Shown: in pieces, positions 3,654 to 19,741 of the stretch
Numbering within the stretch: position 1 is the stretch's first letter
Layout: every line of letters starts with the position of its first letter
Source: a virus
Reading direction: 5' to 3' (one strand)
DNA: 22,392 nt
Virus record (IMG/VR): IMGVR_UViG_3300032435_000076
Location: 1 to 22,392 of that record
Notes under the pieces: generated by a model
Seen by the model: the letters and a program-made list of their open reading frames with translations, nothing else
Databases searched by the model: none
What the model was told of the DNA's origin: nothing
Translations under genes and position numbers: made by a program

Positions 3654-3741
3654 GGGTTGTTTCCTTGATGTTGTTGGTTTCGTCTACTCACCTTCGGGTG
3701 GTTTGTCTGCCTTGTCAACTACAAAGCAGACACCAAGAAGA
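3654..3741 (-). promoter_or_regulatory. Leader/control region of the leftmost operon
   Basis: This 88-base gap contains a palindrome (3705-3731) and an A/C-rich leader with GACGAAACCAAC (3684-3673 on the minus strand), repeated upstream of other transcription units. A TTGACA lies at 3718-3713 on the minus strand, but no convincing -10 follows it, so the exact promoter is not assigned. Confidence 0.5.
3705..3731. promoter_or_regulatory. 27-bp palindromic element (candidate operator)
   Basis: Left half GTCTGCCTTG and right half CAAAGCAGAC are separated by 7 bases and match in inverted orientation at 9 of 10 positions. It belongs to the dispersed TTTGTCTG/CAGACAAA family and sits between the polymerase gene end and the first gene of the leftmost operon. 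Confidence 0.65.
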
Positions 3742-5775
3742 CTATTTTTTGTAGCGGGGGCCGTGCCAGCCGTCGGCTCCAACAGGCAAGCCCGTGGCCC
3801 ACGCCGGGGTGATACTCATTTCCGCCAGCATCGCGGCCAAGGCGTCGTCCGCGCGGTGGGCGTCGGCCTCCCCAACCACTTCGTCGTGGACGGTCAAGAC
3901 AAGCTGCACCAAGTCCCGGTGTTTGTCGTCCAGCCTAATCATTGCGTCCGCCAGAACGTCGCGGGCGGTGGCCTGTGTGACGTTTTCCGCCAGTTTGCCG
4001 CCGTAGGTTCTGATCCGTTCCCATTTCCGGGTGTATTGGTTCACGCCCATGTAGGAAATTTCGTGGTCGCCGTGGCGGCGGTCGCTTGGGATCAGCTTGG
4101 CGTCCCGGTAAAAAAGCGCACGGCCCGAGGGCAAGACGATAGCCAAGTTTGGACCCCACATTCCGACTTTCAGGAAGTCCCCGACGGGAACGATCCTGCC
4201 GGGGTCGGACAGGACTTGCCGACAGGCCGCGTCCAGCGCCCACCAGAAACTCACGATCTTGGGGTTGTCCGCGCGCCATTTCAGTTTGATTTCTTCGGCC
4301 TCACCGTCGGAAACGCTGATGCCATAGTTGGCCGCCATGGTTTGAAACGCACCCTTGCCCCCGCCAAAGCCAAGCGCAAGGATCGAAACCTTCCCGATCT
4401 GGCGATGGTCGTCAGAAATATCGCCCTTCACAAACTTGTGGCCCGCCGGAAACGGCTTCCCAAAGATGCCCGCCCCGGCTTGGACGTAAACGTCGCCGCC
4501 AGAAATAAACACGTCCAAGACTTTCTGTTCCCCGGCCAGCCACGGCAGGACGCGGGCTTCGATCTGGGCGCTGTCCACGGCCACGACGACCTTGCCCAAG
4601 GGGGCGCGCAAACACGACCGCAAAAGGGACGACACGACGCGCATCCCCGGCCCGAAAATCAGTTCGATCAGCGCGGGAGGTGTGCCGCGCTCAATGGCAC
4701 GAATGGCCTCTTTAAGTGCCACTTTGCCGAGTTCGCCGCGCGGCATGTTTTGAAGCTGGATCAGGCGTCCAGCCCATCGGCCCGTCCTGAAAGCGCCGTA
4801 ATATTGCAACATGCCACGGACGCGGCCCACGCCCGTCCGGGTGACACAGGCCGACAACATGGCGTCCAGCTTTGCGGCGCTGGTCTTGGCCCCGTCCGCG
4901 CGCAGTTCCAGCAACTCCCGTTCCAGCCCCGTGCAAGCCGGGTCGTCCAGGCGTTCGGCCACGGTCGCTTTGCGGAGGTTGTCGGCGGGGTACGACAAGG
5001 TGTGCAGGTAAACGGTGAGGGCCGCCGTGGACGTGACTGTCTTTACGGCCCCATGGGTCAGGCGGGCCACGGAAGCATTGACGTTGGCCGCCGCATGAAG
5101 CGCCAGCCCCTTCATTTGGTCAACAAAGTCGTAATCCACGCCGACGCCGTGGGTGTTCATGCGCTGGTCCAACTGCCAAACCCGCAGTTCGTTCTTGGGC
5201 AGGTCCGGCAGGACCGCCGCCAAGGCCCGTTCGACTTCCACGTCCTGCCCGCAGTAATCGCACAGCGCGTCAAATTTCTCTTTGTCGTCTTCGTGCCACC
5301 ACGAAACCTTCCCCGTCGCCGCGTCCACGGACCGGGGACGGCACATGCGCAACATCAAGGAGTGACCGGCTTTGTCTTTGGTGTGCTTGACGCCCGCCGC
5401 GTGTCCAGCCATGTCCAGCGACAGCGGCAGGCCGTAGTAGGCGGCTTGCGCCATTGTGTCCCGGACTTGGGCGATAGCTAGGTCTTGTACGTTCCCCGGA
5501 ATGTTTAGTTGCCGCATCAAGGTGTTGTTCCAGATTGCCAACTCAAAAGCCGCGTTCCATGCCCGGACTTCGCCCATATTCAAAACATGGGTCAGCACGC
5601 GGGCCGGGAAGCGTTCCCCGATCCGCCAGACCTGCACGGGGTCTTGGTCGAAGGCCCACGCCATGCAGAGGACCATGGTGGACGGGTGTTCGGAATATGT
5701 GTGCGCCCCCGTCCGTTTGAGGTCCGCTTGGCTTCCTGTCTCGAAGTCGATTGAAAGGACTTTGGGTTTATTCAT
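3742..5775 (-). CDS. Family A DNA polymerase with 3'-5' exonuclease
   Basis: The product is a replicative phage polymerase of about 677 residues. The N-terminal proofreading exonuclease shows Exo I DFET (D10, E12), an Exo II-like block WNAAFELAIW, and an Exo III-like block CDYCGQDVEVE. The polymerase domain shows motif A (VAVDSAQIEARVLPWLAG), motif B (RQIGKVSILALGFGGGKGAF) and motif C (VHDEV) in order. There is no 5'-nuclease domain, which is usual for phage enzymes of this type. The ATG at 5775, overlapping the end of the GIY-YIG gene, was preferred over a TTG at 5793; neither has a strong ribosome-binding site. It is the last gene of its operon. DpoZ of 2-aminoadenine phages is also a family A enzyme with exonuclease, but sequence motifs alone do not distinguish it. 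Confidence 0.95.
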   Translation of the reverse strand: MNKPKVLSIDFETGSQADLKRTGAHTYSEHPSTMVLCMAWAFDQDPVQVWRIGERFPARVLTHVLNMGEVRAWNAAFELAIWNNTLMRQLNIPGNVQDLAIAQVRDTMAQAAYYGLPLSLDMAGHAAGVKHTKDKAGHSLMLRMCRPRSVDAATGKVSWWHEDDKEKFDALCDYCGQDVEVERALAAVLPDLPKNELRVWQLDQRMNTHGVGVDYDFVDQMKGLALHAAANVNASVARLTHGAVKTVTSTAALTVYLHTLSYPADNLRKATVAERLDDPACTGLERELLELRADGAKTSAAKLDAMLSACVTRTGVGRVRGMLQYYGAFRTGRWAGRLIQLQNMPRGELGKVALKEAIRAIERGTPPALIELIFGPGMRVVSSLLRSCLRAPLGKVVVAVDSAQIEARVLPWLAGEQKVLDVFISGGDVYVQAGAGIFGKPFPAGHKFVKGDISDDHRQIGKVSILALGFGGGKGAFQTMAANYGISVSDGEAEEIKLKWRADNPKIVSFWWALDAACRQVLSDPGRIVPVGDFLKVGMWGPNLAIVLPSGRALFYRDAKLIPSDRRHGDHEISYMGVNQYTRKWERIRTYGGKLAENVTQATARDVLADAMIRLDDKHRDLVQLVLTVHDEVVGEADAHRADDALAAMLAEMSITPAWATGLPVGADGWHGPRYKK

Positions 5776-6370
5776 AGCGGCCACTTGGGTCAAATTTTTC
5801 GATGCCGGCCATGTCTTTGTCTTTCGCTAAAAAACCTAAAAACCACGCAACATCAATGGCGCGCGGCCCGTTCCAGGGGCTTAGGGGGAAGATTTGGGGG
5901 AACATGTTGTTGTCGTCCAAGGCCCAACTCTGCATCACTTCAAGAGGAAGGAGCAGTTGCTCTGCAACATAGTTTTCGCCGTAGCAGCCAATGTTCCTGC
6001 CCTGTTCGTACATTTGGGCTACGTTCCACCAATGTTCACGGTGATACCGGATTGGGACGTTTTGATTTTTAACCCACTCGAACGGCTCAACAACGTCTAC
6101 ATGTCGGTGGTTGTGCAGTATGTTGGCGAGAGGTTTCTCTTTCCGAATAGCCGCCGCTTCGGCGTTCTCTGCCGCGCGACGATTAGGAAAAGTCTCCAAC
6201 CTTATAGTCGTCGCCTGTCCGAACCAACTTGAAGACGCGCGGTGTTGTTTCGCGCGCTGCATGACCGAAACGGATATTCCGACGTAAAGGAGCGTATCGT
6301 TTGCGTCAAAATATCGGTAAAGCGTCGTTGGTCGTGGGCCTAAGTTGGCTTGGCGGGTGTGTGCGTTCAT
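5768..6370 (-). CDS. GIY-YIG nuclease-superfamily protein
   Basis: The 200-residue protein has an N-terminal GIY-YIG-like domain: TLYRYFDANDTLLYVGIS (about 16-33) replaces the canonical GIY...YIG strands. It is followed by a basic helix with R39 (VMQRAKQHR), and then AENAEAAAIRKEKPLANI, supplying the metal-binding Glu (E71) and the family Asn (N83). This version is common in alphaproteobacterial genomes and phages. The C-terminal half (about 95-200) is Trp-rich and not recognised. The ATG at 6370 has AGGAAG eight bases upstream and forms ATGA with the preceding stop. In the replication operon it may cut branched or damaged DNA, or host DNA; this is inferred. Confidence 0.8.
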   Translation of the reverse strand: MNAHTRQANLGPRPTTLYRYFDANDTLLYVGISVSVMQRAKQHRASSSWFGQATTIRLETFPNRRAAENAEAAAIRKEKPLANILHNHRHVDVVEPFEWVKNQNVPIRYHREHWWNVAQMYEQGRNIGCYGENYVAEQLLLPLEVMQSWALDDNNMFPQIFPLSPWNGPRAIDVAWFLGFLAKDKDMAGIEKFDPSGRYE

Positions 6371-6738
6371 GTCCAGTTCTTCCTTTTCTTGGCGACGAAA
6401 CGGCGCTGGCGTTGGGCGCGGTCGTTGTTGGTGGGGTTGTTTTCGGCGTTGCCTTTCACGGGATTTCCGAACAGGACCGTGACCAGCCCCCATTCCAATT
6501 CCGCGTGGTGCCGGGCGAAGACGAAAATGCTTCCGTTGTGGGCGCGGACGCGGCGACAATCGGTATCTGCCCCGGCGCGCATGACGTTTTGGAGCATGTA
6601 TTCGGGGATATTCGGGTCGCCGGGGGGTAGGCCGTGGCGGAAGGCCGCGATGGCTTCCCGGTGGGCTGCGCGGGGCGGCAGGCCCCGGCGCTCTTTCATG
6701 CGGTGGCGCGCGTGGTAGGTCAGCCTGATGTTCGTCAT
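6367..6738 (-). CDS. Small basic protein, possibly DUF4258/RelE-like
   Basis: The 123-residue protein opens with TYHARHRMKERRGLPP, then a helix, a strand-like segment (GSIFVFARHH) and LEWGLVTVLFGNP. The H-A-R-x-R-M-x-E-R start and late hydrophobic strands recall DUF4258 or RelE/HigB-like folds, but the match is weak. The tail (about 95-123) is strongly basic and Asn-rich. The start at 6738 is set by the ATGA overlap with the upstream gene. No antitoxin partner sits beside it, and neighbours on both sides are DNA-metabolism genes. Confidence 0.6.
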   Translation of the reverse strand: MTNIRLTYHARHRMKERRGLPPRAAHREAIAAFRHGLPPGDPNIPEYMLQNVMRAGADTDCRRVRAHNGSIFVFARHHAELEWGLVTVLFGNPVKGNAENNPTNNDRAQRQRRFVAKKRKNWT

Positions 6739-7100
6739 GGCTTCGGCCCGCCGTGCGCCCGGTCGTCTTCCCCGATGCCGCGTTCTTCGTAGGCGATCAG
6801 GAAGGCGACACAGCAAAGCAGGTGCCAGAGGTGCGAGTGTCCGGTTTCTGCGTCCGTATCCCCGAACAGAAAAGACTTTGTGGTCGGACCTTTGCCGCCC
6901 CACCACGCCCAAGCGTGGCGCATGGCCGCCCCAAAAATGCGGCCCCACGACATGCCTTTTTCCCAATTCCGATCCGCGTATTTTACCGCACCGAACGTCA
7001 GGATCGTGGCGAGGGCGAACATGGCCTCCGGGGGGATCAAATCCATTCGGGGCTTGTCGGTATCGTCTTTCCGACCGTGTGTGTTTTCGTCCATATTCAT
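6735..7100 (-). CDS. dATP/dGTP diphosphohydrolase-like protein (former DUF5664)
   Basis: This protein of about 121 residues has the conserved pattern KPRMDLIPPEAMFALA, TFGAVKYADRNWEKGM, AAMRHAWAWW, GHSHLWHLLCCVAFLIAYEER. That pattern defines the helical domain annotated in databases as dATP/dGTP diphosphohydrolase N-terminal (earlier DUF5664), related in concept to MazG-type all-alpha NTP pyrophosphatases. In 2-aminoadenine phages such an enzyme makes dGMP from dGTP for the PurZ route. The family is also frequent in ordinary phages, where its role is unclear. The start is ambiguous among ATGs at 7106, 7100 and 7094; 7100 gives the ATGA overlap with the methyltransferase-like gene, and a GGGG lies just upstream. 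Confidence 0.8.
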   Translation of the reverse strand: MNMDENTHGRKDDTDKPRMDLIPPEAMFALATILTFGAVKYADRNWEKGMSWGRIFGAAMRHAWAWWGGKGPTTKSFLFGDTDAETGHSHLWHLLCCVAFLIAYEERGIGEDDRAHGGPKP

Positions 7101-7687
7101 CCCCATTGTTCAGCCATTGCGTCCGCGACGCCTTGGAAAGTTTCGCTGCGCAACCGCCAACGGTCCGCGCTTGGTGGCAGGTGGAAGACCCTTTGCCTTT
7201 CGGCGGACGTGAGGGCCGCCATTTTGTGTTTCACGTCGTTTGTTGGGGTCAGCGGCGGCAGGTTTTTAAGCCAAAGGCAGGTGGCCTTTTGTTCCGGGTG
7301 GCCGAACCACCACGGTTGAACGGTCTGCGTCTGTTGGGCGCCGCCGATCCGGGCTTTCCCGTGTTTGTGCATGATGGGGTTTTCCACGGCGATCTTGCCG
7401 ACGGGGGCGTTCAGGAGTTTTTGGAAGAACCGTGCCGCGTCGTCCAAAGCCGCCCAACGGGCCGGGTCGCGGTACAGCCACCGGACGCCACTGTTCGCCA
7501 AGAACGTGCAAGGTGGGTGCGCGATCAGGAGGTCGTAAAGGGTGAAGTCCAGATCGAACACGTCCCCTTGGTAGTGAAACCCCGGCTGCGCGGTTGGAAG
7601 CAGGTCAACCGACACGGCGAAGTGGCCGCGCTTCACGAAGGCGTCACGCACCTTGCCGGAAAACTCACACGCGATCAGGACGTTCAT
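7097..7687 (-). CDS. C5-cytosine methyltransferase-like protein
   Basis: The 196-residue protein starts with a Rossmann-type SAM-binding motif (MNVLIACEFSGKVRDAF), has an acidic strand end (SVDLLP), then AHPPCTFLANSGVRWL with the PPC of C5-methyltransferase motif IV (candidate nucleophile C60), and VENP (101-104) like motif VI. It is much shorter than restriction-type enzymes and shows no clear target-recognition domain or motifs IX-X. It belongs to a compact phage family usually annotated as DNA methyltransferase. Self-modification of phage DNA is plausible but unproven. It is the first gene of the polymerase operon, with the palindromic element starting only 9 bases upstream of its ATG. Confidence 0.75.
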   Translation of the reverse strand: MNVLIACEFSGKVRDAFVKRGHFAVSVDLLPTAQPGFHYQGDVFDLDFTLYDLLIAHPPCTFLANSGVRWLYRDPARWAALDDAARFFQKLLNAPVGKIAVENPIMHKHGKARIGGAQQTQTVQPWWFGHPEQKATCLWLKNLPPLTPTNDVKHKMAALTSAERQRVFHLPPSADRWRLRSETFQGVADAMAEQWG

Positions 7688-7696
7688 GGCGCTTTT

Positions 7697-7723
7697 GTCT
7701 TTCTTGTTTTCTGCAAAGCAGAC
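7697..7723. promoter_or_regulatory. 27-bp palindromic element (candidate operator)
   Basis: Left arm GTCTTTCTTG and right arm CAAAGCAGAC are separated by 7 bases, the same geometry as at 3705-3731. It lies between the DUF2815 gene and the methyltransferase-like gene, only 9 bases before the latter's start codon, so it overlaps that gene's leader. Confidence 0.6.
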
Positions 7724-7724
7724 A

Positions 7725-7748
7725 CAGCGGGCGCGAAAACGCCCGCTG
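7725..7748 (-). terminator. Strong hairpin after the DUF2815 gene
   Basis: A perfect 9-bp GC-rich stem (CAGCGGGCG/CGCCCGCTG) has a 6-base loop, TTTTCG on the minus strand, 12 bases past the DUF2815 stop. No T-run follows, so it may be a pausing or RNA-stabilising structure rather than a full intrinsic terminator. It abuts the palindromic element at 7697-7723. Confidence 0.5.
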
Positions 7749-7759
7749 CATCAGTGATT

Positions 7760-8407
7760 TTAGAAAGGCAGGCCGCCAGCGTTGGCCGCGCCCGCCGGGG
7801 TGTTGTTGTAGGCGGTCGTGGCGGTCGTGACGGCGTTCGGGTCGATACCGAGGGCCGCAAGCTGCGAGTTGTCCGCAGCCTTGAAGGCGTCTTCGGCGGA
7901 AACACCACCGTCACGGCGCGGCATATCGGCCTTGACGATCTGAACGTGTTCCAAGAACAAGCCCACGCCTTTGTTGCCGTTGGTGTCGTAACCGAACGGG
8001 CGGACCGTGAAGCGCGCCAACTGCCCCATGAAGACCGACTGTTTGTCCAAAATGTTGTTCCCTTGCAGGTCCACCACGCCGGGTTTCTGGTCAGCCGCCG
8101 CCCACGGGGCGATGAAAATTTCCCCGTCCGCGAAGCCGGAGTAGGTTTTTTCGGACGCTTGGCGGAACGGCAGGCGGCATTGGGCCAAAAAGGCTTTGTC
8201 GTTGGCCTTGGCGGCGCCAAACTTTGCCACCAGCGCGTCGAAAACGCCCTGACGCAAGGTCTGGTACTGTTGGGAGCCGGTCCCGGTCTTGTCCAGCAAA
8301 AGCATTGCGCCGAAGCGCGCGGCCTGTGTCGGGACTTGCTTGTTGCCACGGGCTTCAAACAGGTTGGGGAAGTAAAGGTAGCCTACGGGGGTCATGATAC
8401 CAGCCAT
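7760..8407 (-). CDS. DUF2815 phage ssDNA-binding-like protein
   Basis: The 215-residue protein begins MAGIMTPVGYLYFPNLFEAR and contains YSGFADGEIFIAPWA and a late RPFGYDTNGNKGVGLFLEHVQIV block. This is the usual layout of DUF2815, an OB-fold-like phage family found next to DUF2800 nucleases and DNA polymerases and considered an ssDNA-binding protein. The extreme C-terminus (GGLPF) resembles the hydrophobic tip of bacterial SSB tails, though the acidic stretch is missing. The ATG at 8407 is favoured by TTGGAG upstream; an earlier in-frame start lacks this. It is the last gene of its operon, directly after the DUF2800 gene, the standard phage order. Confidence 0.85.
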   Translation of the reverse strand: MAGIMTPVGYLYFPNLFEARGNKQVPTQAARFGAMLLLDKTGTGSQQYQTLRQGVFDALVAKFGAAKANDKAFLAQCRLPFRQASEKTYSGFADGEIFIAPWAAADQKPGVVDLQGNNILDKQSVFMGQLARFTVRPFGYDTNGNKGVGLFLEHVQIVKADMPRRDGGVSAEDAFKAADNSQLAALGIDPNAVTTATTAYNNTPAGAANAGGLPF

Positions 8408-8436
8408 GGTAATCTCCAAGTTTTGATGTTTAAGGT

Positions 8437-9747: not shown

Positions 9748-9758
9748 GGGGCGTTCCT

Positions 9759-10088: not shown

Positions 10089-10100
10089 GGGGGTGTTCCT

Positions 10101-10358
10101 TTACTTGGTGATGTGTTTGACGGCCCACATTGCCGCTTCTTCAATTTTGGTGATCGCCAGAGACATTTCGCGGCTGCGGCCAACGGCTTCACACTTGCCG
10201 ATGAACGCGGCGGCGGCGTCCTTGAGGTCCACCATTTGCCCCTTTTCGGCGTCCGTAAGGACGCGATACTGGTGGCGGACGGCGTTGTTGGCCGTCCGGT
10301 CGTCGGACGCCCCGTCAACATGGGATTTCGCACGGGTCATTGGGGGTTCTTCACGCAT
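10101..10358 (-). CDS. Acb2/Tad1-like hairpin protein, candidate anti-CBASS sponge
   Basis: The 85-residue protein's C-terminal 55 residues form a likely helical hairpin: YRVLTDAEKGQMVDLKDAAAAF, then SREMSLAITKIEEAAMWAVKH. The combination YRxLTxxE...K, SREMSLA and KIEEAxMWAVKHIT is how I recall the Acb2/Tad1 hairpin family (DUF7681) of small phage proteins that bind cyclic oligonucleotides and block CBASS immunity. Tyr31 and Lys46 are 15 residues apart, the same spacing as the reported ligand-binding Tyr11 and Lys26 of Acb2. The first 30 residues are polar and probably disordered. It leads an operon, with AAAAGGGACACCCA before the ATG and a 35-bp palindrome upstream. The alternative is an unrelated small helical protein. 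Confidence 0.65.
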   Translation of the reverse strand: MREEPPMTRAKSHVDGASDDRTANNAVRHQYRVLTDAEKGQMVDLKDAAAAFIGKCEAVGRSREMSLAITKIEEAAMWAVKHITK

Positions 10359-10388
10359 TGGGTGTCCCTTTTGGTTGGTTTAGGTTCT

Positions 10389-10423
10389 GTCTGTTTTGCA
10401 GCGGATTGGCAAGCAAAACAGAC
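10389..10423. promoter_or_regulatory. 35-bp palindromic element (candidate operator)
   Basis: Perfect 11-bp inverted arms GTCTGTTTTGC and GCAAAACAGAC are separated by 13 bases. It lies 31 bases upstream of the Acb2-like gene. On the minus strand ATTTGT-CTG overlaps its edge and could be a -10, with TTCAAT as a weak -35 at 17 bases. Confidence 0.65.
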
Positions 10424-10436
10424 AAATTTGGGGTGA

Positions 10437-10458
10437 CGAAACCCATTGAAGGGTTTCG
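10437..10458 (-). terminator. Hairpin after the acidic-linker gene
   Basis: A perfect 8-bp stem CGAAACCC/GGGTTTCG with a 6-base loop starts 8 bases past the stop codon at 10467. There is no T-run, so it may be a transcript-end structure of a factor-dependent kind. Confidence 0.45.
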
Positions 10459-10466
10459 AGTAGGGC

Positions 10467-11006: not shown

Positions 11007-11024
11007 GTGTTGCTCTTTCGTGTG

Positions 11025-12425
11025 CTACTGAAGGACGCCGGGGGTTTCTGCCCCGTACATTTGGTAGTTGTCTTCGGCGCGGCGGCGCAAGATGCGCGCT
11101 TGGCGACGTTCGAGAGGCACGGCTTCGTCATATGCAACGTAGGCCGTGACGGTGTTGCGTTGCCCGAGGCGGTGGGCGCGGCTCACGATTTGATAATTCT
11201 GGTCAGGGCTTGGGTGCGGCTCCACCAAGACAACCGTTTCGGCGGCGGTCAGGGTGATTGCCGTGCCAGCGGCGATGTTCTGGCCGATGAAAACCCGCAC
11301 CGACTTTTCACCTTGGAACAGGTCCACCGCGCGCTCTTTGTTCTCTGGGCTTACGCTGCCGTCCACCTTTACGGGTTGATATTTCGCCAGCCCTTCGACC
11401 AATGCCGCGAGGACTTCCTTGTGGTGGCCGTAGACCAAAATCTTCTTGTCCGGGTTCACGTCCAAAAATTCTTTGATCCAGATCAATACCGCTGCGGCTT
11501 TGGCGATACCGAGGTGCCGCCGTTGGCTTCCGGGCTGCGTTTCCAACGCGGTCAGGTACGCTTCGACTTCGGCGTCCGTCATGGCGTCCACTTCTTCTTC
11601 GGACAAGGCCGCAACTTGTTTGAACCCCGTTTCCAAAGGTAGCGGCACGGTGAGGATGGGCGGCAGTTCGGTCAGCACGTCAGCTTTCCGGCGCATCAGG
11701 ATATGGGGCGCAAGGGCTTCGCGCAGTTCCCCGACCGTTTCAGGGTTGTTTCCGATCACTTCGCGGCCAAAACGTGTTTCAAAGATTTGGCAGAACCGAT
11801 CCTCAAACGCGAATTTGTTGGGGATTTTACCACCAAACAGCTTCGCCAGCACGTCCGGGAACAGCGCCCGCAAGTGTGAGTAGAGTTCCCCGACGTGACC
11901 CAAGGGGGTGGGTGTCGCCGTGGCGATCCAGCGCGGACCTGTGACGTTGGCCGGGGACAGGACGGCGTTTTTCAGGTCCAGTTTGGAGCCGTAAACCGCT
12001 TTGGTCCGGGCCGCGTCCGGGCTTTTGACCCCGTGGGCTTCATCCACAAACGCCACGTCGAAGGGTGTGCGGCGCGCGATTGCGGCCATGAGTTGCTGCG
12101 CGCGGGCTTTGTTGGACAACCATTCCATGCCGACAATCATGACCAAAGGCCCGTCAGGGATTTCGTCTTTCTGTGACGTGAACGGATACGTCATAACCCG
12201 GCGGGCCGCTATGTCCCACTCGCCAAATTGCAGCTTCCACGATCCCCGCGCAATGGCGGGGGCAATCACGAGGATACGGCGCGCGCCGATGGTGTTCGCG
12301 GCGGCGATCATCTGCATGGATTTCCCCAAGCCCGCGTCGTCCGCGAGAAGTGCGCGACGACGCGAGGTCAGAAAAGCCGTGCCTGTGATTTGGTAAGGTT
12401 TGGCGAACACTGACTGGCCCCTCAA
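11025..12425 (-). CDS. SNF2-family (SF2) DNA helicase/translocase
   Basis: The 466-residue ATPase of the SNF2/SMARCAL1 type has a Q-like AKPYQITGTAF, motif I DDAGLGKS (29-36), motif II DEAH (128-131), motif III ATATPTPLG (from 168), and motif VI with RAHRLGQ (416-422) near the end, the hallmark of SNF2 proteins. Phage members commonly accompany DUF2800/DUF2815/polymerase genes and are thought to remodel forks or recombination intermediates. I chose the TTG at 12425: it overlaps the upstream stop as TTGA and places the Q-like motif right after the start. Longer reading into the upstream gene gives an unlike, Arg/Ser-rich extension. Confidence 0.9.
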   Translation of the reverse strand: MRGQSVFAKPYQITGTAFLTSRRRALLADDAGLGKSMQMIAAANTIGARRILVIAPAIARGSWKLQFGEWDIAARRVMTYPFTSQKDEIPDGPLVMIVGMEWLSNKARAQQLMAAIARRTPFDVAFVDEAHGVKSPDAARTKAVYGSKLDLKNAVLSPANVTGPRWIATATPTPLGHVGELYSHLRALFPDVLAKLFGGKIPNKFAFEDRFCQIFETRFGREVIGNNPETVGELREALAPHILMRRKADVLTELPPILTVPLPLETGFKQVAALSEEEVDAMTDAEVEAYLTALETQPGSQRRHLGIAKAAAVLIWIKEFLDVNPDKKILVYGHHKEVLAALVEGLAKYQPVKVDGSVSPENKERAVDLFQGEKSVRVFIGQNIAAGTAITLTAAETVVLVEPHPSPDQNYQIVSRAHRLGQRNTVTAYVAYDEAVPLERRQARILRRRAEDNYQMYGAETPGVLQ

Positions 12426-12967: not shown

Positions 12968-13008
12968 GTCTGTGTCCTGGTTGTTGGTTTCATATAACGA
13001 CAAGGCAG

Positions 13009-13037
13009 ACAAAACACTATTAGGTTCAGCCCGTCAA
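13009..13037 (-). promoter_or_regulatory. Promoter of the SNF2 helicase operon
   Basis: On the minus strand TTGACG (-35), exactly 17 bases, then TTTTGT (-10) merge into the CAGACAAA/TTTGTCTG element (13006-13013). The -35 lies inside the last codons of the RuvC-like gene. The leader to the ATG at 12967 contains GAAACCAACAAC. The same -35/17/-10-plus-CTG arrangement occurs at 13936-13964. Confidence 0.6.
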
Positions 13038-13553
13038 CTGCTTTTTCAGAAAACTATAGCCAATCAGCGCCGCATCGGCCCGATTGTGATCCATTTTGCG
13101 GCTAAACAGTTGGGATTGTTCAGGAAATAATTGCACGGCGCGGAGCCTTCCCGCGTCGTCACCCTTGCGGACGCCTGCCGGGGTCTGCCATTCGCTCGGG
13201 CGCATGAACGAGATAGGCAGGCCGAGGGCCGCCGCGACGCCGTGACAGACGCCCGTGACGAACCCGAACCGGAACATGGACGTGACGCCTTGTCCCGGCA
13301 TCGCATGAACGTCTTCGATCACGACCATAGAGGGCGTCGGCATGGCCGGGTTGCGCATCATGTCCGCGAGGACGGCGGGCTGGACGTGCGACTTGATGGT
13401 TTTGCCCTGTTGGGCTTTGGCCGTGGGCATGTCCGCGACGCCTATCAGGTGGATAGTCTTGCGCGCGTGGTTAAATTCCAGCCAAGCCAAAGCCCCGGTC
13501 AGGCCGGGGTCCACGGCAAGGATGGTCGTGACCTGGGGTTTGGGGTGCGTCAT
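13026..13553 (-). CDS. RuvC-like Holliday junction resolvase
   Basis: The 175-residue protein has an RNase H-fold core: LAVDPGLTGALAWL (D15), VVIEDVHAMPGQGVTSMFRFG (E80), and a C-terminal HNRADAALIG (H156, D160). These are the four acidic/His positions of RuvC-type resolvases, with the family's MFRFGF-GVCHG helix in between. It would resolve recombination or replication junctions before packaging. The ATG at 13553 was chosen from the ATGA overlap with the upstream gene and AGGAAGG upstream; an earlier start would add a non-homologous Gly/Pro-rich segment. Phage RuvC-like enzymes commonly accompany DUF2800-type recombination genes. Confidence 0.9.
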   Translation of the reverse strand: MTHPKPQVTTILAVDPGLTGALAWLEFNHARKTIHLIGVADMPTAKAQQGKTIKSHVQPAVLADMMRNPAMPTPSMVVIEDVHAMPGQGVTSMFRFGFVTGVCHGVAAALGLPISFMRPSEWQTPAGVRKGDDAGRLRAVQLFPEQSQLFSRKMDHNRADAALIGYSFLKKQLTG

Positions 13554-13882
13554 TTGGGGGCCTTCCTGAACAGAAGGTTGATCGGCATGGCCTTGTCCCG
13601 CAGGAGCATATAGATCATGACCGCGCGCCAGCGGTCCGGGATTTCCTTGCGGCGGACCCACTGGACAACTGCCCACCATGTTGGGGGCGTCAGGTTGTGT
13701 TTCTCAAACAGGTTTCGGATCGACACGGCCTCTTGGGTGGACCCGGACTTGGGGTTTCCCCCGGCATGTTGCCCGGCGCGTTCCAGAAGTTCGGCGTCAT
13801 TCCAGTTCAGGTCTGGGAGGACGCCGCGTCCGTGGAGGACGTTGTTTGGGGTGAACCCTTCGGTGTTTTCGCCCATGTTCAT
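13550..13882 (-). CDS. Small protein with YdaS/CARPH-like C-terminal HTH segment
   Basis: The 110-residue protein has an unstructured, Asn/Gly-rich N-terminus (about 1-50). Its C-terminal part (TPPTWWAVVQWVRRKEIPDRWRAVMIYML) resembles the helix-turn-helix and following helix of YdaS/CARPH-type phage regulators, where IPxRWR is typical. The resemblance is by eye. The ATG at 13882 has AGAAGGGAACC upstream. It is the first gene leftward from the lysogeny control region, directly under the promoter at 13936-13964 and opposite the XRE repressor, which is where a Cro/CII-type early regulator would be expected. Confidence 0.6.
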   Translation of the reverse strand: MNMGENTEGFTPNNVLHGRGVLPDLNWNDAELLERAGQHAGGNPKSGSTQEAVSIRNLFEKHNLTPPTWWAVVQWVRRKEIPDRWRAVMIYMLLRDKAMPINLLFRKAPK

Positions 13883-13923
13883 GGTAGGTTCCCTTCTCAT
13901 TGGTGGTCTTGGGGATTTAATTA

Positions 13924-13937
13924 CAGACACAACAGAC
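13924..13937. promoter_or_regulatory. Double CAGAC half-site (candidate operator)
   Basis: Two direct CAGACA half-sites start at 13924 and 13933 (CAGACACAACAGACAAT). They overlap the -10 and the start region of the leftward promoter at 13936-13964, so a protein bound here would block it. Confidence 0.55.
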
Positions 13938-13964
13938 AATAGGCGTTGTGCCGTGAGGCGTCAA
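13936..13964 (-). promoter_or_regulatory. Leftward early promoter
   Basis: On the minus strand TTGACG, a 17-base spacer and TATTGT form a good sigma70-type promoter 54 bases upstream of the ATG at 13882. The -10 runs straight into the CAGAC half-sites, as at the helicase promoter. Confidence 0.65.
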
Positions 13965-14042
13965 TAGGTCTAGGGCTTGCGGTTTAGGGGGTTTTGTCGG
14001 TTTCCCTTGTAGGTTGCGCGTATGTTTTTTCTGCAATTTTGT

Positions 14043-14070
14043 TTGACAAACCAGACAAAGGGTCTAATTT
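14043..14070 (+). promoter_or_regulatory. Rightward promoter of the repressor with embedded CAGACAAA
   Basis: TTGACA (14043-14048) and TAATTT (14065-14070) are separated by 16 bases, and CAGACAAA (14052-14059) lies within the spacer. The start codon of the repressor is 45 bases on. This position suits autoregulation of the repressor. Confidence 0.55.
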
Positions 14071-14114
14071 GGGTTGACCGGGCGCTGCGTTCGGAAGGGA
14101 TAGGAGACTAGAGA

Positions 14115-14561
14115 ATGTCTAAGCAAAACGAAGACGGCAACGGCGATAATACGGGTGGCGGGCCTGTAGGTGGCTTCAAGCAAAGACTGTACCAGTTGCG
14201 CCGCGCGGCGGGTTTGTCGCAAAGCGGGTTGGCCCGGAAAGTTTGGGGCGAACTTGAGGACGCGCGGGGCTACATGGTGGCCCGCAACCGCGACCGGGTA
14301 TCGGCCTATGAAGCTGGACGTGCAGAGCCGACCCGCGAAAACTTGGACGGCTTGGCCGAAGCCTTGGGTGTGACCGTCGCGGAGTTGGCCCCGGACTTGG
14401 TGTTGGCCCGCCCGAATACTTTGGGGGTGCCTGCCCCCGCCGTGTCGTTTGCGTTGACTTCCGGTGGCATGGCCCGGTTGAAGGTAGATATGGAAGTGCC
14501 GTTGGGCATGGCCGTGGCCGTCTTGAAAATGCTGGCCCCGGAAAACCGCGTCGGGCGGTGA
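14115..14561 (+). CDS. XRE-family HTH repressor (CI-like)
   Basis: The 148-residue protein has a disordered Asn/Gly-rich start (1-20) and a Cro/CI-type HTH_3 domain at about 21-93: FKQRLYQLRRAAGLSQSGLA, then RVSAYEAGRAEPTRENLDGLAEALGVTVAEL. An insert of roughly 15 residues (GELEDARGYMVARNR) separates the second helix from the recognition helix region. The C-terminal 50 residues are hydrophobic and may mediate dimerisation; there is no LexA-type peptidase. AGGAGACTAGAGA precedes the ATG. It is the first gene of the lysogeny operon, faces away from the leftward early genes, and is the most likely reader of the CAGACAAA elements, although this is inferred. Confidence 0.85.
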   Translation: MSKQNEDGNGDNTGGGPVGGFKQRLYQLRRAAGLSQSGLARKVWGELEDARGYMVARNRDRVSAYEAGRAEPTRENLDGLAEALGVTVAELAPDLVLARPNTLGVPAPAVSFALTSGGMARLKVDMEVPLGMAVAVLKMLAPENRVGR

Positions 14562-14911
14562 AAATGGAAATTTTGACGCAAGCCGAAGTCGCGTTCCGTT
14601 TGGGGGTGTCCCCCCGGACGGTGGCGCGGTTGCGGGCTGCGGGTGAGTTGGCTTTCTTGCCGGGGCGTCCTGTCCGGGTGCGGGTGGCCGAGGTGGATCG
14701 TTGGATATTGGCGCAGGAGGCGCGAGGGAAATGGTTAGGAAAGTTACATCAACAAGCATCGGCGGCGGTGGCGTCCCAGAGGTCCGCCTGTGCAGGGCAA
14801 AGACCGGAATTTGGGAATTACGGTGGTCCGAACGCGATGATGTTGCAGATCGCACGAGGTCGCGCAGTCAAAGTTGCAGGACGACGGACCGGGACGAAGC
14901 CGAAGGCGTAA
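14558..14911 (+). CDS. Excisionase-like MerR/HTH_17 protein
   Basis: The 117-residue reading frame's first 55 residues are a typical excisionase/MerR-like HTH_17 domain: LTQAEVAFRLGVSPRTVARL, a Leu-Pro-Gly-Arg-Pro wing and VAEVDRWIL. The remainder is low-complexity and overlaps the integrase gene in another frame for 181 bases, so the tail may be a by-product with no conserved role. The start is GTG at 14558 (GTGA overlap with the repressor stop) or ATG at 14564. Its place between repressor and integrase fits a directionality factor for excision, or a coregulator of integration. Confidence 0.75.
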   Translation: MKMEILTQAEVAFRLGVSPRTVARLRAAGELAFLPGRPVRVRVAEVDRWILAQEARGKWLGKLHQQASAAVASQRSACAGQRPEFGNYGGPNAMMLQIARGRAVKVAGRRTGTKPKA

Positions 14912-15846
14912 AGGCTGCATGGGTGTTGGCGACGATCCAAGCCCAAAAAACACAAGTGATGGTCGGCGGTGGCGCGCTGACCGTGGCGGACCTGATGGGC
15001 GCTTACATGGCGGACCGGGGGTTTGTGGTAGGATCGACCCAAGATTGGGCGGTGCGTCAGATTGTCGCAGGCTTGGGGGCCGGGATGGTGAGTGGCTTGG
15101 GGGCTTTGGTTGTTCAGAAATACCGGGTGCGGCGCGCTGTGCGGGTGGCCGACCCGACGATCCGCCGGGAGTTGGTTTGCTTGAAAGCTGCCCTGAATTG
15201 GGGCCGCATAAATGGGGTGGTCGCCCCGGGCTGTTTGCCTGTGATTAGCCTGCCGTCTGACGGTGTGGCGCGGACGCGGTATCTGTCCGAGGGAGAAGAA
15301 GAAGCCGTGTGGGGTGCCGCCTATGATCGGTTTATGTCTGGGGCTTTGCCGTTTCGGGAGCGTCGGGCGGCGTTGTTTGTGTGCATCGCTTTGGAGACTG
15401 CCGCGCGCGAGAGCGCAATCCGGGGGCTGACTTGGGATCGGGTGGACCTACGGGTGGGGGTGATAGACTTCCGTGACCCCAACATGAAGGTGACGAAGAA
15501 GCGCCGGGTTCCGGTGCCGATTTCGGACCGGCTGCGGCCCGTCTTGGAAATGGCGGCGGGGCAGGCGGGTTTGGCGGTGCCGGGGAACAAGTTTGTGTTG
15601 CGCGATCCGGGAGCCGTCAGGAAGGGTTTTGAGGGTTTGCGCGCCGGGGTGATGGTCGGCGGGGCTGTGGATCGGTTTTCCATTCACGACATGCGGCGGA
15701 CATGGGCGTCGTTGCGCGTCCAATGGGGGGTGCCTCTTGAGCAAGTCGCCGGGGTGTTGGGTGATGGGATTGAGGTGGTTCAGAAGCACTACGCGCACTT
15801 CGCGCCCGGATACTTGAGAACTGCCGTGAATAGGCGCGCGGCCTAA
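14731..15846 (+). CDS. Phage tyrosine integrase
   Basis: The product is a site-specific recombinase of 371 residues. It has an N-terminal arm-binding part (IWELRWSERDDV), a core-binding SAM-like domain (about 80-165) and a C-terminal catalytic domain with R226 (LETAARESAIRGLTW), a beta-hairpin Lys (KVTKKRRVPVPI), H319xxR322 (IHDMRRTW) and the nucleophile Y354 (KHYAHF). The usual LGH of box II reads LGD here, so the second His position is replaced by Asp, a tolerated but uncommon change. The ATG at 14731 follows AGGAGGCGCGAGGGA; an in-frame ATG 30 bases earlier is possible. A strong terminator follows. The tRNA-Thr fragment at 77-121 is its probable target. Confidence 0.93.
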   Translation: MVRKVTSTSIGGGGVPEVRLCRAKTGIWELRWSERDDVADRTRSRSQSCRTTDRDEAEGVKAAWVLATIQAQKTQVMVGGGALTVADLMGAYMADRGFVVGSTQDWAVRQIVAGLGAGMVSGLGALVVQKYRVRRAVRVADPTIRRELVCLKAALNWGRINGVVAPGCLPVISLPSDGVARTRYLSEGEEEAVWGAAYDRFMSGALPFRERRAALFVCIALETAARESAIRGLTWDRVDLRVGVIDFRDPNMKVTKKRRVPVPISDRLRPVLEMAAGQAGLAVPGNKFVLRDPGAVRKGFEGLRAGVMVGGAVDRFSIHDMRRTWASLRVQWGVPLEQVAGVLGDGIEVVQKHYAHFAPGYLRTAVNRRAA

Positions 15847-15862
15847 AAACAAGTTGACAACG

Positions 15863-15884
15863 GGGGGCAGTTGGCCCCCTTTTT
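15863..15884 (+). terminator. Rho-independent terminator of the lysogeny operon
   Basis: The stem GGGGGC/GCCCCC, with loop AGTTG, is followed by TTTTT, 17 bases after the integrase stop. It also overlaps the region just upstream of the primase gene, whose possible -35 (TTGGCC) lies within it. Confidence 0.85.
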
Positions 15885-15896
15885 GGCGTCTTATTT

Positions 15897-15922
15897 GTCT
15901 GTTTTGCAGGTTGCTTGCAGAC
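15897..15922. promoter_or_regulatory. 26-bp palindromic element (candidate operator)
   Basis: GTCTGTTTTGC and TTGCAGAC form an imperfect inverted repeat, preceded by TTTGTCTG at 15894-15901. It lies 31-56 bases upstream of the primase start. On the plus strand ATTTGT-CTG could act as a -10, as at the other promoters. Confidence 0.55.
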
Positions 15923-15952
15923 CACGAAACAACCAAACATAGGGAGAAAACC

Positions 15953-18481
15953 TTGAGTTTTCCATTTAACACAAAGACTTGGGCTGGCATGTCCGAATAT
16001 GTGACGGCGATTTACGGAGACACGTTGGCAAATGGGGCGGTCTGGACGACGGGCATGGTGTCCGTGGAAGGGTCCAACGCCGCGTGGTTTGGGGCCTCTG
16101 GTCTAGCCCATTTGGAAGCCAAGTTTCCGGGCATGGGCGCGGACTTGTATGCGTGTATCGGGGTGATGGGGCCGGGGTCTTCGGCCCGTGGCAACCGGAA
16201 CGTGGTGGCGCAACCGCTTTTGATTGTGGACGACATTGGTACGAAGATCGACCGGGGGGCTTGGAACCTTTTGTTTGCGATGGGGTTCCCGCTGCCGACA
16301 GCGAGGATCGAGACTTCGCCGGGGAATGAGACTTGGATTTGGGCCTTGGCCGGGGACGCGACTGATCCAGCCCGGTGGGTGGACTTGGCGGTGATCCGGG
16401 CTTGGCTGGTGGACATGAAGCTGACCGACGACGTGATGGACGCGGCGCGGTATATCAGGCTTCCTGGGGGTCACAATTCAAAGGCCAAATATAAGACTGG
16501 TGGAGGAAGTGGAGTTTCTCCACCAGTGACTTTGGTGGACTGGCAGGAGTGTCGGCCTTCGATGGGTGGCGCGCGCGTGGACTTGGACGCGGTGGGGGTT
16601 GCGTTGTTGGGTGCGGCCCGGTGGGCGGCGCGGGAGTTTCCGGCGACGGCTGCGGGGCGTTCTCAAGCATCTTCGGCGGTCTTGGGGAACATGGCCGGGT
16701 TGGTCAGGTCTGCGGATTTAGCCGCGGGGAATGATCCGCTTATGGTGTTGGGGTCTGTGATCGGCATGAATTTGGTGCAGATCAGGCCCGGAGTGGTCGA
16801 AGGGTTGTGTCCAAATATCGCGGCGCACGGCGACCGGGCTGACACGGGGTTTGCCTTCTTGGGTGATGGGCTGATGCACTGTAACCACGCGTCTTGTCAG
16901 GAATTGTCTACTCGGGAGTTTCGGGGGATGATGGAAGCCGAGTTCGAGCGACAGGCTGCGGCGGCCCCCGGTGGGCTTCTGGAAGGTTGTGCATCGGCTT
17001 CGGGTTTCATGGCCCGGCAAGTGTTTTCCGGTGCCGACGCGGGCAATCAAGTTTTGGCGGGTGGCGTCGTCGCGGGGGTTGCATCGGTGGCGCAAGGCAT
17101 GGCCGTCGCATCGGCGGCGGCTGCGGCGGACCGGGCTTTGGTGTTTGCCGACGGCTTGGACGGGTTGGTGGATCGTTACGCTTGGATCAGCGCCGTGGAC
17201 ATGTTCTTTGACCGTGTTTCGCGCAAGCTGATCCCGTTCGGTCAGATAGATCGGCGTGAGGCGGTGCTGGCGGTTATCCCTGCGGGCAGTTCTGGCGCCA
17301 AAAAGGCGCAATTCCAAATGGTGAACCACACAGGTCTGGTTCATCTGGACGCGGTGGCCCGCGCTGCCGGGGACCATCGGGATATTCTGGACATTGTGGA
17401 CGTGGAGGGCGACCGGACGCGGGTGGCGAACATCTGGCGCGCGTCCAAGGTCTGTTCGATTGATCGGGCGAGTTTGCGGGTCAGGCGTCCGGTCGAGTGG
17501 TTGGAGTTGTTGGCGCACGTTATCCCGGACGCGGCGTATCGGGAATGGTTTTTGGACTGGCTGGCGTTCGGGTTCCAGTTTCCGGGTAAGCGCAAAATGA
17601 CGATCCCCATGTTTGTCGGGGGGCAGGGCATCGGCAAAGACGTGATTTTGTGGATACCAAAGCTACTTCACGGCGCAAGCAACGTCACCACGCTTGAAAT
17701 GCACCAGATCGGCGCAAACTTCAACGAATGGGCTTTGAACGACCTGGTGTTGCTGAACGAAATGAAATTCGGCACGGACGGCAAAATGTATAACGCCGTG
17801 AAAGGTCTTTTGGCGAACGCCGAGGATTGGGTGTCCGTCAATGCCAAGTACGATCGTGCGTATAAGGCGCGGGTCAGTTTCTCCATGATCGCCATGACGA
17901 ACCACCTTGACGCGCTGCAAGGGTTGGAGCCGGACGACCGCCGGTTCCAGCCCTACATCAGCCCCGCCGAGAAACGGGAGTTGGACTTCTACAATCGGCG
18001 GGTCGTGGCCGGGTCTACGCCGGAAGCGGTTGAGGGCGCTCTGGACTTCCTGTTGTCACGGGACTTGTCCAAGTTCACGATCTACACCCCTGCGCCGGGT
18101 GCTGACGCCGCAAAGAACGTCATGGCCGTAGAGAACCTGACGGGGGCCGCGCTCTGGGCCTTTCAATCTGTGCAGAAAGGTGGCGGTGGGCGCTTCGTCG
18201 GGCGGCACTTGTTGTCCATTGCGGAAGTCGAAACGGCTGCCTTGGCTGACCCGTCCCGACGGATTTCAGGGAACGTCGATGCGCGTCCGCTGGCGAAAGG
18301 GCTGCGGACGGCGGGCTGGACGAGCCTTGGACAGATCGGTCCGCGCAACGATAGAACCTCCGTTTGGGTTTCCCCGGACGCGGTTTCGATGTTTGGAGGC
18401 GCGTCCAAGGCGTCTGCGCGCAAAATGTACGACGCTGAAAAGTTGGCGCACGACGCCTTGTTGTTGGGGAACATCAACTAG
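15953..18481 (+). CDS. Primase (PrimPol-like)-SF3/D5-type helicase
   Basis: The 842-residue replication protein has an N-terminal PrimPol-like region with LLIVDDIGTKI (acidic pair 92-96), TARIETSPGNETWIWAL (SPGN 122-125) and RYIRLPGGHNSKAKY (169-175), the usual phage archaeo-eukaryotic primase blocks. A zinc-like cluster follows (C286, H292, C310, C315; form C-x5-H...CNHASC), then an Ala-rich linker. The last is a DUF5906/NrS-1-type helicase domain with Walker A GGQGIGKD (556-563), Walker B LVLLNEM, and a sensor NHLDALQ region. I chose the TTG at 15953 because AGGGAG lies eight bases upstream; the next in-frame ATG (MSEYV) is 12 codons later. It probably initiates replication near the A+T-rich island downstream. 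Confidence 0.88.
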   Translation: MSFPFNTKTWAGMSEYVTAIYGDTLANGAVWTTGMVSVEGSNAAWFGASGLAHLEAKFPGMGADLYACIGVMGPGSSARGNRNVVAQPLLIVDDIGTKIDRGAWNLLFAMGFPLPTARIETSPGNETWIWALAGDATDPARWVDLAVIRAWLVDMKLTDDVMDAARYIRLPGGHNSKAKYKTGGGSGVSPPVTLVDWQECRPSMGGARVDLDAVGVALLGAARWAAREFPATAAGRSQASSAVLGNMAGLVRSADLAAGNDPLMVLGSVIGMNLVQIRPGVVEGLCPNIAAHGDRADTGFAFLGDGLMHCNHASCQELSTREFRGMMEAEFERQAAAAPGGLLEGCASASGFMARQVFSGADAGNQVLAGGVVAGVASVAQGMAVASAAAAADRALVFADGLDGLVDRYAWISAVDMFFDRVSRKLIPFGQIDRREAVLAVIPAGSSGAKKAQFQMVNHTGLVHLDAVARAAGDHRDILDIVDVEGDRTRVANIWRASKVCSIDRASLRVRRPVEWLELLAHVIPDAAYREWFLDWLAFGFQFPGKRKMTIPMFVGGQGIGKDVILWIPKLLHGASNVTTLEMHQIGANFNEWALNDLVLLNEMKFGTDGKMYNAVKGLLANAEDWVSVNAKYDRAYKARVSFSMIAMTNHLDALQGLEPDDRRFQPYISPAEKRELDFYNRRVVAGSTPEAVEGALDFLLSRDLSKFTIYTPAPGADAAKNVMAVENLTGAALWAFQSVQKGGGGRFVGRHLLSIAEVETAALADPSRRISGNVDARPLAKGLRTAGWTSLGQIGPRNDRTSVWVSPDAVSMFGGASKASARKMYDAEKLAHDALLLGNIN

Positions 18482-18500
18482 GTTTCCTAGATCGAACCGA

Positions 18501-18526
18501 GGCAAGCGGGTTCACCCCCGCTTGCC
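18501..18526 (+). terminator. Terminator-like hairpin after the primase gene
   Basis: A perfect 10-bp stem GGCAAGCGGG/CCCGCTTGCC with loop TTCACC begins 19 bases after the primase stop. Only a weak T-rich run follows. Confidence 0.6.
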
Positions 18527-18529
18527 CCT

Positions 18530-18720
18530 CTGATTTCATCCTATACCCTAGAATAAAACACCCAATCCTTGATACAAAATCTAGGTCGTTTTTTCTCAAT
18601 AAAAACAATACCTAAACACCTAAATCCTAACGTACTAATATCACTTACTATATAAAGTATAATATAATATATATACATACACACACACACACACACATGT
18701 ATAAGAGTTTACCCCCGATT
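18530..18720. other. A+T-rich intergenic island, candidate origin
   Basis: No gene is supported. In contrast to the GC-rich surroundings it is markedly A+T-rich. It holds several CCTAAA/CCTAA-type steps (18610-18635), a TA-rich run (18645-18675) and a (CA)9 tract (18679-18696) flanked by TATACAT and ATGTATA, which can pair. It lies right after the primase-helicase gene, a common place for a phage origin and DNA-unwinding element. Confidence 0.5.
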
Positions 18721-18745
18721 TTAACTAGGATTAAGGATGGTGTTT

Positions 18746-19489
18746 TCAGGGCCGCAAACCCATCGCGGCGGCGTCGCGGACGCACTCGGACCATTCCCGA
18801 AAATCCCCACGGACGCGGACGGCTTCCCACGCGGCCAAAAATCTCAAGACCAACCCCACACACGCCTCATGGTGTTTTCTGCGCTGCGCGTATGACCAGT
18901 CTTCAAACAGCGGGTTCTTGATGGCTACCCCGAACCGCGCCCGTTTGTAGGCTTCGGCAAATTCAGGAACGTCCCGGACCAATTCCATAGGGAATGTCTG
19001 CGCGCGCACGATCTGCCGCAAGACACCCACGCCGAGCAAAGCCCGGTCGGGTTTGTAATCCTCAAACTTGGCGTGAAGGTTTCGTTCATGCTGCGCACGG
19101 CCCCCGTGGCGCATACAGCGGTTTGAGTTTTTCACCGCAGGCCCTTTGCAACGAACCCCGGTCAGCAAATTCACGCGGTCGCATTTCTTGCAGACAGGCC
19201 CCACGCCCGGTTTGAACTGTGTTCCTGCCCGGTGCATGTCCAGCGCCGCCAGCCGCGCCGGAGGTTGAAACGATCCGATCTTTACCCCCCGCTTCTCGCG
19301 CCGGTGTTTGAACTTCGGAATACTCCCTGTTGCCGTCCGCGCGATGCTTTCCTGATTTACCCGCAGGCTCAACTCCTGCATCAGCAGCGCGCCGTCCATC
19401 ACAGAGGCTTGCGCCGCGTCGAACACTCTTTCGGCGGATACTCTCGGGGGCAACTTTGGGCGGGTTTTTGCGGGTTTTGCAGGTTTCAT
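18746..19489 (-). CDS. Hypothetical protein with Cys/HGG motif
   Basis: The 247-residue protein has a basic, Lys/Pro-rich start. Its middle has VCKKCDRVNLLTGVRCKGP and NRCMRHGGRAQHERN, i.e. Cys100, Cys103, Cys114, Cys125, His128 and the HGG signature seen in short zinc-binding phage and plasmid proteins. The helical C-terminal half (about 150-247) is rich in Trp and Arg. Family functions are unclear; small-terminase-like or DNA-binding roles are possible guesses. The ATG at 19489 has AAAGGAAACC upstream. A longer start at 19513 or 19563 exists. It is alone on the minus strand between plus-strand genes, and a GC-rich repeat array lies beyond its start. Confidence 0.7.
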   Translation of the reverse strand: MKPAKPAKTRPKLPPRVSAERVFDAAQASVMDGALLMQELSLRVNQESIARTATGSIPKFKHRREKRGVKIGSFQPPARLAALDMHRAGTQFKPGVGPVCKKCDRVNLLTGVRCKGPAVKNSNRCMRHGGRAQHERNLHAKFEDYKPDRALLGVGVLRQIVRAQTFPMELVRDVPEFAEAYKRARFGVAIKNPLFEDWSYAQRRKHHEACVGLVLRFLAAWEAVRVRGDFREWSECVRDAAAMGLRP

Positions 19490-19645
19490 GCGGGTTTCCT
19501 TTTTGGGGGACATAAGCCAACAAAACCTACTCTCCCCACCAAAACCAAACAAGCGGGTTTTCATGCGGGTTTTCTCACTCACCCCCAGGCGGGGGTCGCG
19601 CCCGCCCGCCCACGCCCGCGCCCGCGCCCGCGCGCGACCCCCCAC

Positions 19646-19698
19646 CTGGACGCCTGGACGGGGCTGGACGGGGCTGGACGGGGCTGGACGGCTGGACG
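19646..19698. repeat. Array of six CTGGACG units
   Basis: Six CTGGACG units start at 19646, 19654, 19664, 19674, 19684 and 19692, spaced 8, 10, 10, 10 and 8 bases. The central units form a perfect 10-bp tandem repeat (GGGCTGGACG three times). Such helically phased direct repeats resemble iterons or cooperative binding sites. Confidence 0.75.
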
Positions 19699-19733
19699 CC
19701 GCCAGACGAAACCAACAAAGACAGTTGACAGAG

Positions 19734-19741
19734 CAGACAAA
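19734..19741. promoter_or_regulatory. CAGACAAA element upstream of the AAA+ gene
   Basis: It matches the octamer found at other transcription-unit starts, 56 bases upstream of the ATG at 19797. TTGACA immediately precedes it (19725-19730), as at the repressor promoter, but no clear -10 follows. Confidence 0.5.

Follow-up and report, generated by a model that had tools for sequence, protein, structure and literature searches.

The window, a 22,392-base IMG/VR virus record (IMGVR_UViG_3300032435_000076) analysed over its full length, holds the early half of a temperate phage, as judged from its gene content. It encodes a family A DNA polymerase (polA), an Enc34-type single-stranded DNA (ssDNA)-binding protein, a DUF2800 nuclease, an SNF2 helicase, a RuvC-like resolvase, a divergent Cro-like/XRE repressor pair, an HTH_17 protein, an integrase, a primase-like protein and an AAA+ (CobS-like) ATPase. 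The phage is read as temperate because of the tyrosine integrase at 14743-15846. Gene ends were set by a simple gene caller and inspection. Dispersed through the gaps between these genes is a short DNA element built around the octamer CAGACAAA. Most probably, as comparison with related phages indicates, its copies serve together as operators for the XRE-type repressor that the phage itself encodes (14115-14561).

An exact word search places the octamer at 3702-3709, 10419-10426, 13006-13013, 14052-14059, 15894-15901 and 19734-19741, the six positions of the original prediction, all within gaps, with no other exact copy in the window. It is as rare by chance as had been claimed (fewer than one copy per window): shuffles contain a mean of 0.75 copies and 0 of 100 reach six. 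The curated gene ends leave ten gaps of at least 20 bases, 1,341 bases in total. These gaps hold 6 copies against 0.067 expected, whereas the genes hold 0 against 0.60 expected; the word is thus not as frequent inside genes as between them. Because the octamer had been picked by eye, all words were tested for the best one. In 0 of 2,000 dinucleotide shuffles of the gaps was any 8-mer present in at least six of the ten, and AGACAAA is present in seven of the ten (0 of 2,000 shuffles). The element had been said to stand before almost every transcription unit. This is right for seven of the ten gaps and too broad for the remaining three (8408-8436, 18482-18745, which is convergent, and 21291-21392), from which a strong site is absent. 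Near matches to the octamer, perfect 11-bp arms at 10389-10423 and a 26-bp form at 15897-15922 are all real. The palindromes at 3705-3731 and 7697-7723 do not share one 7-base centre, as had been proposed; their centres agree in length only (TCAACTA and TTTTCTG).

The octamer, taken originally as the unit, proves to be the strong half of a larger one. The real unit is a 16-mer, TGACAAARCAGACAAA, which contains two GACAA words spaced 9 bp start to start and begins up to 8 bp outside the octamer. It was derived by aligning AGACA contexts in the gaps of the window and of four relatives. Word counts and this alignment defined the motif; an unconstrained expectation-maximization search was set aside because it drifted towards A-runs of low complexity. 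The window has 13 copies of GACA-N5-GACA (0.45 expected), with 5 in gaps, 1 single coding match and 7 within a coding tandem repeat. A held-out matrix was trained on the relatives L038, L037, L009 and L017 only, and then applied to the window. Its nine best window matches all lie in gaps; training on contexts centred on AGACA guarantees the match to the core but not the gap placement. At 10 bits or more, the matrix gives 14 gap matches, against a mean of 0.98 and a maximum of 5 in 2,000 gap shuffles, and also 8 coding matches, so that the weaker matches are not to be trusted singly.

The spacing of words was counted from 234 anchor words in 17 phages. Another word in the same orientation is spaced 9 bp away in 24 cases (1.2 expected) and 10 bp away in 10 (1.3 expected). 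Inverted words at 8, 17, 26 or 35 bp number 28, where scaling to the anchor count gives an expectation of about 2.5. When every inverted distance is folded by 9, a single phase takes 28 of the 91. The 9-bp signal in coding sequence is weak. From the direct and inverted spacings, the simplest full operator is therefore two words in tandem followed by two inverted words, in steps of 9, 8 and 9. This suggests a full form of two facing 16-mers, in which four words make up a quasi-palindrome of about 34 bp; at many sites, a single good arm is left. Face-to-face pairs are found at 3702-3734 and 7694-7726, and at 10386-10426 with 9 bp between the arms, and the sites at 12998, 13925, 14044, 15894 and 19726 are mainly single 16-mers (Table 1). 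Relative to transcription, 6 sites have the same orientation, 13 the opposite one and 7 lie in divergent gaps.

A tandem array of the same pitch was considered as an operator and rejected. About 16 tandem 9-bp copies of AGCAGGACA at 22117-22294, in gene 21393-22391, form a QDK-type low-complexity repeat. This GACAAGCAG tandem has the pitch and core of the operator, but it is coding, and no such tandem was seen in the L038 and L009 homologues of the gene.

Table 1. Predicted operators and associated features of the window. Operator scores are bits of the held-out matrix.
Feature	Position	Strand	Score or match	Setting
Predicted operator pair, TGACAAGGCAGACAAA and abutting CTACAAAGCAGACACC	3702-3717; 3719-3734	-; +	19.9; 14.0	Before gene 3432-3653, downstream of polA; orthologous gap carries a site in L037, L038, L009 and L017
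Predicted operator pair	7694-7709; 7711-7726	-; +	17.7; 14.5	7 nt before start of gene 7097-7687; directly after RNA hairpin
RNA hairpin running into the 7711-7726 site	7721-7752	-	Minimum free energy -29.8 kcal/mol; z -3.9
Acb2/Tad1 hairpin-domain gene	10101-10358		PF24729 E=1e-17	Directly downstream of paired predicted operator
Predicted operator pair, 9-bp gap, perfect 11-bp arms	10386-10401; 10411-10426	-; +	15.7; 19.1	Before Acb2/Tad1 gene
Predicted operator CGACAAGGCAGACAAA	12998-13013	+	18.7	On -10 of leftward promoter TTGACG-17-TTTTGT; same gap and geometry in L037, L038 and L017
Cro-like protein, helical model resembling a helix-turn-helix (HTH)	13550-13882	-	Predicted local distance difference test (pLDDT) 77	Divergent from repressor
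Predicted operator AGACACAACAGACAAT; weak third word	13925-13940; 13916	+	17.8; 11.1	Overlaps -10 of leftward cro-like promoter
Predicted operator TGACAAACCAGACAAA	14044-14059	+	21.0 (highest in window)	Repressor's own promoter region; first word overlaps TTGACA box; equivalents in L037 and L038
XRE-type repressor, 148 aa, one HTH	14115-14561	+	PF01381 E=3.4e-9
Small HTH_17 (excisionase-type) protein	14558-14911	+	PF12728 E=1.5e-10; phrog_66	Adjoins repressor
Tyrosine integrase	14743-15846 (start approximate)	+	PF00589 E=1.5e-9; phrog_1 E=2.9e-31
Predicted operator CTGCAAAACAGACAAA; degenerate second arm	15894-15909; to ~15922	-	17.7	Before primase-like gene (TTG start ~15953); same gap in L038 and L009
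Predicted operator cluster, TGACAGAGCAGACAAA, second site and weak word	19726-19741; 19738-19753; 19710	+	17.7; 14.1; 11.5	Before AAA+ (CobS-like) gene at 19797; equivalent site in L038

Both leftward promoters with which the element had been said to merge were borne out, TTGACG-17-TATTGT at 13964-13936 by a consensus scan and TTGACG-17-TTTTGT at 13037-13009 by direct reading, and a predicted site is indeed situated in the repressor's own promoter region. The proposed list of target genes also holds, with DNA polymerase, RuvC-like, SNF2 helicase and deoxynucleotide (dNTP) enzymes and the Acb2/Tad1 gene, whose product is likely a sponge acting against CBASS (cyclic-oligonucleotide-based antiphage signalling system). 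Apart from the operators, a 56-bp repeat of 95% identity (1773-1828 and 2084-2139) spans the starts of two adjacent genes, which have the common N-terminus MTETPQELIARL.

Relatives, mostly metagenomic, were found through the repressor and through the annotated phages Microcystis phage Mae-Yong1326-1 and Rhizobium phage RHph_N65 (N65). The gene order of L037, L038, L009 and L017 matches that of the window and their sites lie in the same gaps, a placement kept despite repressors only 40-50% identical. Across the window and these four relatives, a site is found after polA in 5 of 5 and downstream of RuvC in 5 of 5; it is clear in four in the cro-repressor gap, occurs in three in the integrase-primase gap and in three after the ssDNA-binding gene, and is clear in two before the AAA+ gene. 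The RuvC gap carries TTGAC, about 17 bases and TTTTGTCTG in the window, L037 and L038, and approximately so in L017. The site in the repressor-promoter region is present in the window, L037, L038 and N65. In N65, whose repressor is 34% identical and without the beta-hairpin insert described below, the cro-repressor gap has perfect 11-bp arms, TTTGTCCG and CGGACAAA, with CATTTTGTCCG-N15-CGGACAAAATG. Dispersed sites also occur in L003 and L038. Family- and class-level genome searches gave few prophage copies, and the primase-like protein, used as a query, gave no relative.

The repressor belongs to the XRE/Cro-CI-type HTH proteins (PF01381, 37 bits against a cut-off of 23). Its AlphaFold2 model (mean pLDDT 85) has a beta-hairpin insert (46-56) between helix 2 and the recognition helix (59-67), a variable residue, A64, within that helix, and a C-terminal beta-beta-alpha unit of about 50 residues after the HTH. 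Structural matches cover the HTH alone, with P22 c2, C.AhdI and SinR near the top (target-normalised template modelling score (TMt) 0.81-0.86, E no better than 4e-3). No S24 autocleavage/peptidase domain was recognised in it by the Pfam scan, and its tail in the model is beta-beta-alpha.

An association between this protein and the word was sought in loci of at least 11 kb, scoring GACA with a particular preceding base (XGACA) as enriched at corrected p <0.001. Enrichment is found in 21 of 53 loci with the XRE repressor and in 1 of 40 without it on the same RuvC backbone; the Fisher p of 1.4e-5 is optimistic, since the loci are related and duplicates among the 21 reduce them to about 15 distinct phages. 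The XGACA form was chosen after the first relatives had been seen, which leaves partial independence only for the control set and for the loci from L037 on. The preceding base also varies with a residue of the recognition helix: A, V or T accompanies AGACA in 13 phages, and Q or H accompanies GGACA in 4. This helix-residue column ties for the strongest association with the word in the repressor (p 0.0004). Taken with the syntenic gaps and the site in the repressor's own promoter region, these results argue for the multi-site operator set that had been predicted for the XRE protein.

Several findings speak against this assignment. Enrichment of XGACA is not significant, at corrected p 0.01, in 30 of the 53 XRE-bearing loci; other words appear in some of these (L002, L016 and L018) and none was found in others. 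The A-to-G specificity switch is a single change on the repressor tree and has little statistical weight alone, so that the covariation is counted as supporting only. Weak exceptions to it are L053, where H goes with A, and L042, where V goes with G. In the consensus scan, the majority of sites are without a consensus sigma-70 promoter. Finally, the Cro-like protein is equally well placed as a reader.

L018, which counts in favour of the XRE protein, has the helix RQTLGRY and a changed, GCCAAAAGCACCAA-like word at the same 9-bp pitch; such pairs number 5 in 1,268 bases of gap and 2 in 19,149 bases of coding sequence. Its gaps with such elements include 7781-7815, 11799-12117 and 16049-16089. 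The gaps of L002/L016 (helices GHYLAG/GFYLAG) have dispersed CACAACA words, some at 10-bp pitch. Eight GTAACA copies, some in 9-bp tandem (GGTAACACCGGTAACA), lie in one gap of L041 (14294-14671). In the L114 fragment the XRE repressor was not found, although its gaps contain 12 copies of GGACA (1.2 expected); another regulator or truncation may account for this.

The strongest alternative is that the main reader of the sites is the Cro-like protein, or that both proteins read them, with the XRE protein secondary. The CI/Cro pair of lambda, with operators common to both proteins, is the established precedent. The Cro-like gene lies in the same place in five relatives, is divergent from the repressor in all four closest ones and is conserved with it; its product, which has no Pfam match, is modelled as HTH-like. 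However, the XRE protein was the basis for sorting the control loci, and it is changes in the XRE recognition helix that accompany changes in the word. The association data fail to separate the two proteins because they travel together. We regard a leading or shared role for the Cro-like protein as possible, though on balance doubtful.

Could the palindromes act instead in RNA, as terminators or processing hairpins? Gap transcripts at 3702, 7694 and 10386 do fold well (z -3.1, -3.9 and -7.7). However, four of the sites (12998, 13925, 14044 and 19726) are not palindromes, single sites run both with and against transcription, sites overlap promoter boxes, and Rfam has no match for them; an RNA element was rejected on these grounds as very unlikely. 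We give still less credence to the word being part of a promoter (as an extended -35 box, TTGACA) or the box of a host regulator. TTGACA does occur in some sites (3712-3717 on the minus strand, 14043 and 19725), but it is missing from others (CGACAAGG, CTGCAAAA and AAGCAAAA), the enriched words are AGACA, GGACA or CGACA rather than TGACA, and enrichment is missing in related phages without the repressor. In addition, TGACAAANCAGACAAA was found in 0 of 198 genomes, and the 16-mer in none of them, of the family of the Rhodobacteraceae metagenome-assembled genome L030 (a candidate host family only). Replication iterons, typically direct repeats with fixed pitch, or partition sites are scarcely credible: the fixed-pitch direct repeats are iteron-like and one site precedes the primase-like gene, but the sites are dispersed over 16 kb at one or two per gap, with no single-origin cluster, and are fused with promoter boxes.

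Under control by the XRE repressor, the explanation that we favour, the protein would bind these gaps in the lysogen and obstruct RNA polymerase. In some promoters, it is the -35 box together with the spacer that the operator would cover (TTGACAAARCAGACAAA; the promoter of the repressor itself and the polA gap). At others, it would cover the -10 from the opposite strand (TTGACG-17-TTTTGTCTG; the cro-like and RuvC-gap promoters). Either geometry would be expected to block RNA polymerase. Replication, recombination, nucleotide, anti-CBASS and AAA+ genes would then be repressed jointly, and the repressor would control its own level through the site in its own promoter. The sites, their location in gaps, their conserved positions, the 9-bp lattice and the link with the repressor family are observed, whereas binding, oligomeric state and direction of regulation are inferred.

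More tentatively, the repressor family, modelled with an HTH and beta-hairpin insert, a small beta-beta-alpha tail and no peptidase domain, may assemble on a 9-bp GACAA lattice, with two tandem words per arm and the arms inverted, and some bound sites abutting an RNA hairpin may serve as a roadblock that aids termination. The hairpin at 7721-7752 and its site are a possible terminator-plus-roadblock. In the gap after the ssDNA-binding gene, where there is little promoter room, hairpin and site are also present in L037 and L017.

Dispersed phage repressor sites are already known, from P1 C1 and L5, whereas this repressor family and its 9-bp lattice appear uncharacterised; among open-licence papers, none relevant to the family or the motif was found. 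For a repressor family that occurs in dozens of uncultivated phages, the sites provide an operator code specific enough to be tested, with natural variants that differ in recognition helix and DNA word. If the code is correct, immunity groups could be predicted from sequence, and the anti-CBASS gene, given the site before it, would fall under repressor control and hence under the control of lysogeny. If the 9-bp lattice is bound as read, the seating on DNA would be unusual for an XRE protein.

Among the closest known arrangements is that of P1 C1, a single phage repressor with 22 asymmetric 17-bp sites spread over the genome (PMC8546580). Here too, many copies of one site lie in gaps (seven of ten), their reader being predicted. 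The P1 consensus, ATTGCTCTAATAAATTT, is unrelated, and the 16-mer described here is a 9-bp direct repeat that pairs into palindromes. L5 has more than 20 asymmetric sites, all short, which lie in promoters and in short intergenic gaps, and the consensus sites of phages related to L5 are similar to one another but distinct (PMC9283540, PMC6550527). The orientation of L5 sites follows transcription, whereas that of the sites described here does not (6 same, 13 opposite); an L5-type stoperator was rejected on this orientation test. The L5-type repressor binds as a monomer through two DNA-binding domains; for the repressor described here, one HTH and a beta-beta-alpha domain are predicted. With lambda CI/Cro, the window shares divergent repressor and Cro-like genes, sites over both promoters (13925-13940 and 14044-14059) and an adjacent integrase. 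It differs in that no S24 peptidase domain is recognised and in that the sites are spread over the early region on a 9-bp lattice. Finally, SinR of Bacillus subtilis is an XRE-type HTH protein that uses a short promoter box in several orientations and numbers (PMC3163267), and it is among the structural matches of the repressor HTH. That match covers the HTH only, however, the box is GTTCTYT, and SinR is a biofilm regulator rather than a phage repressor.

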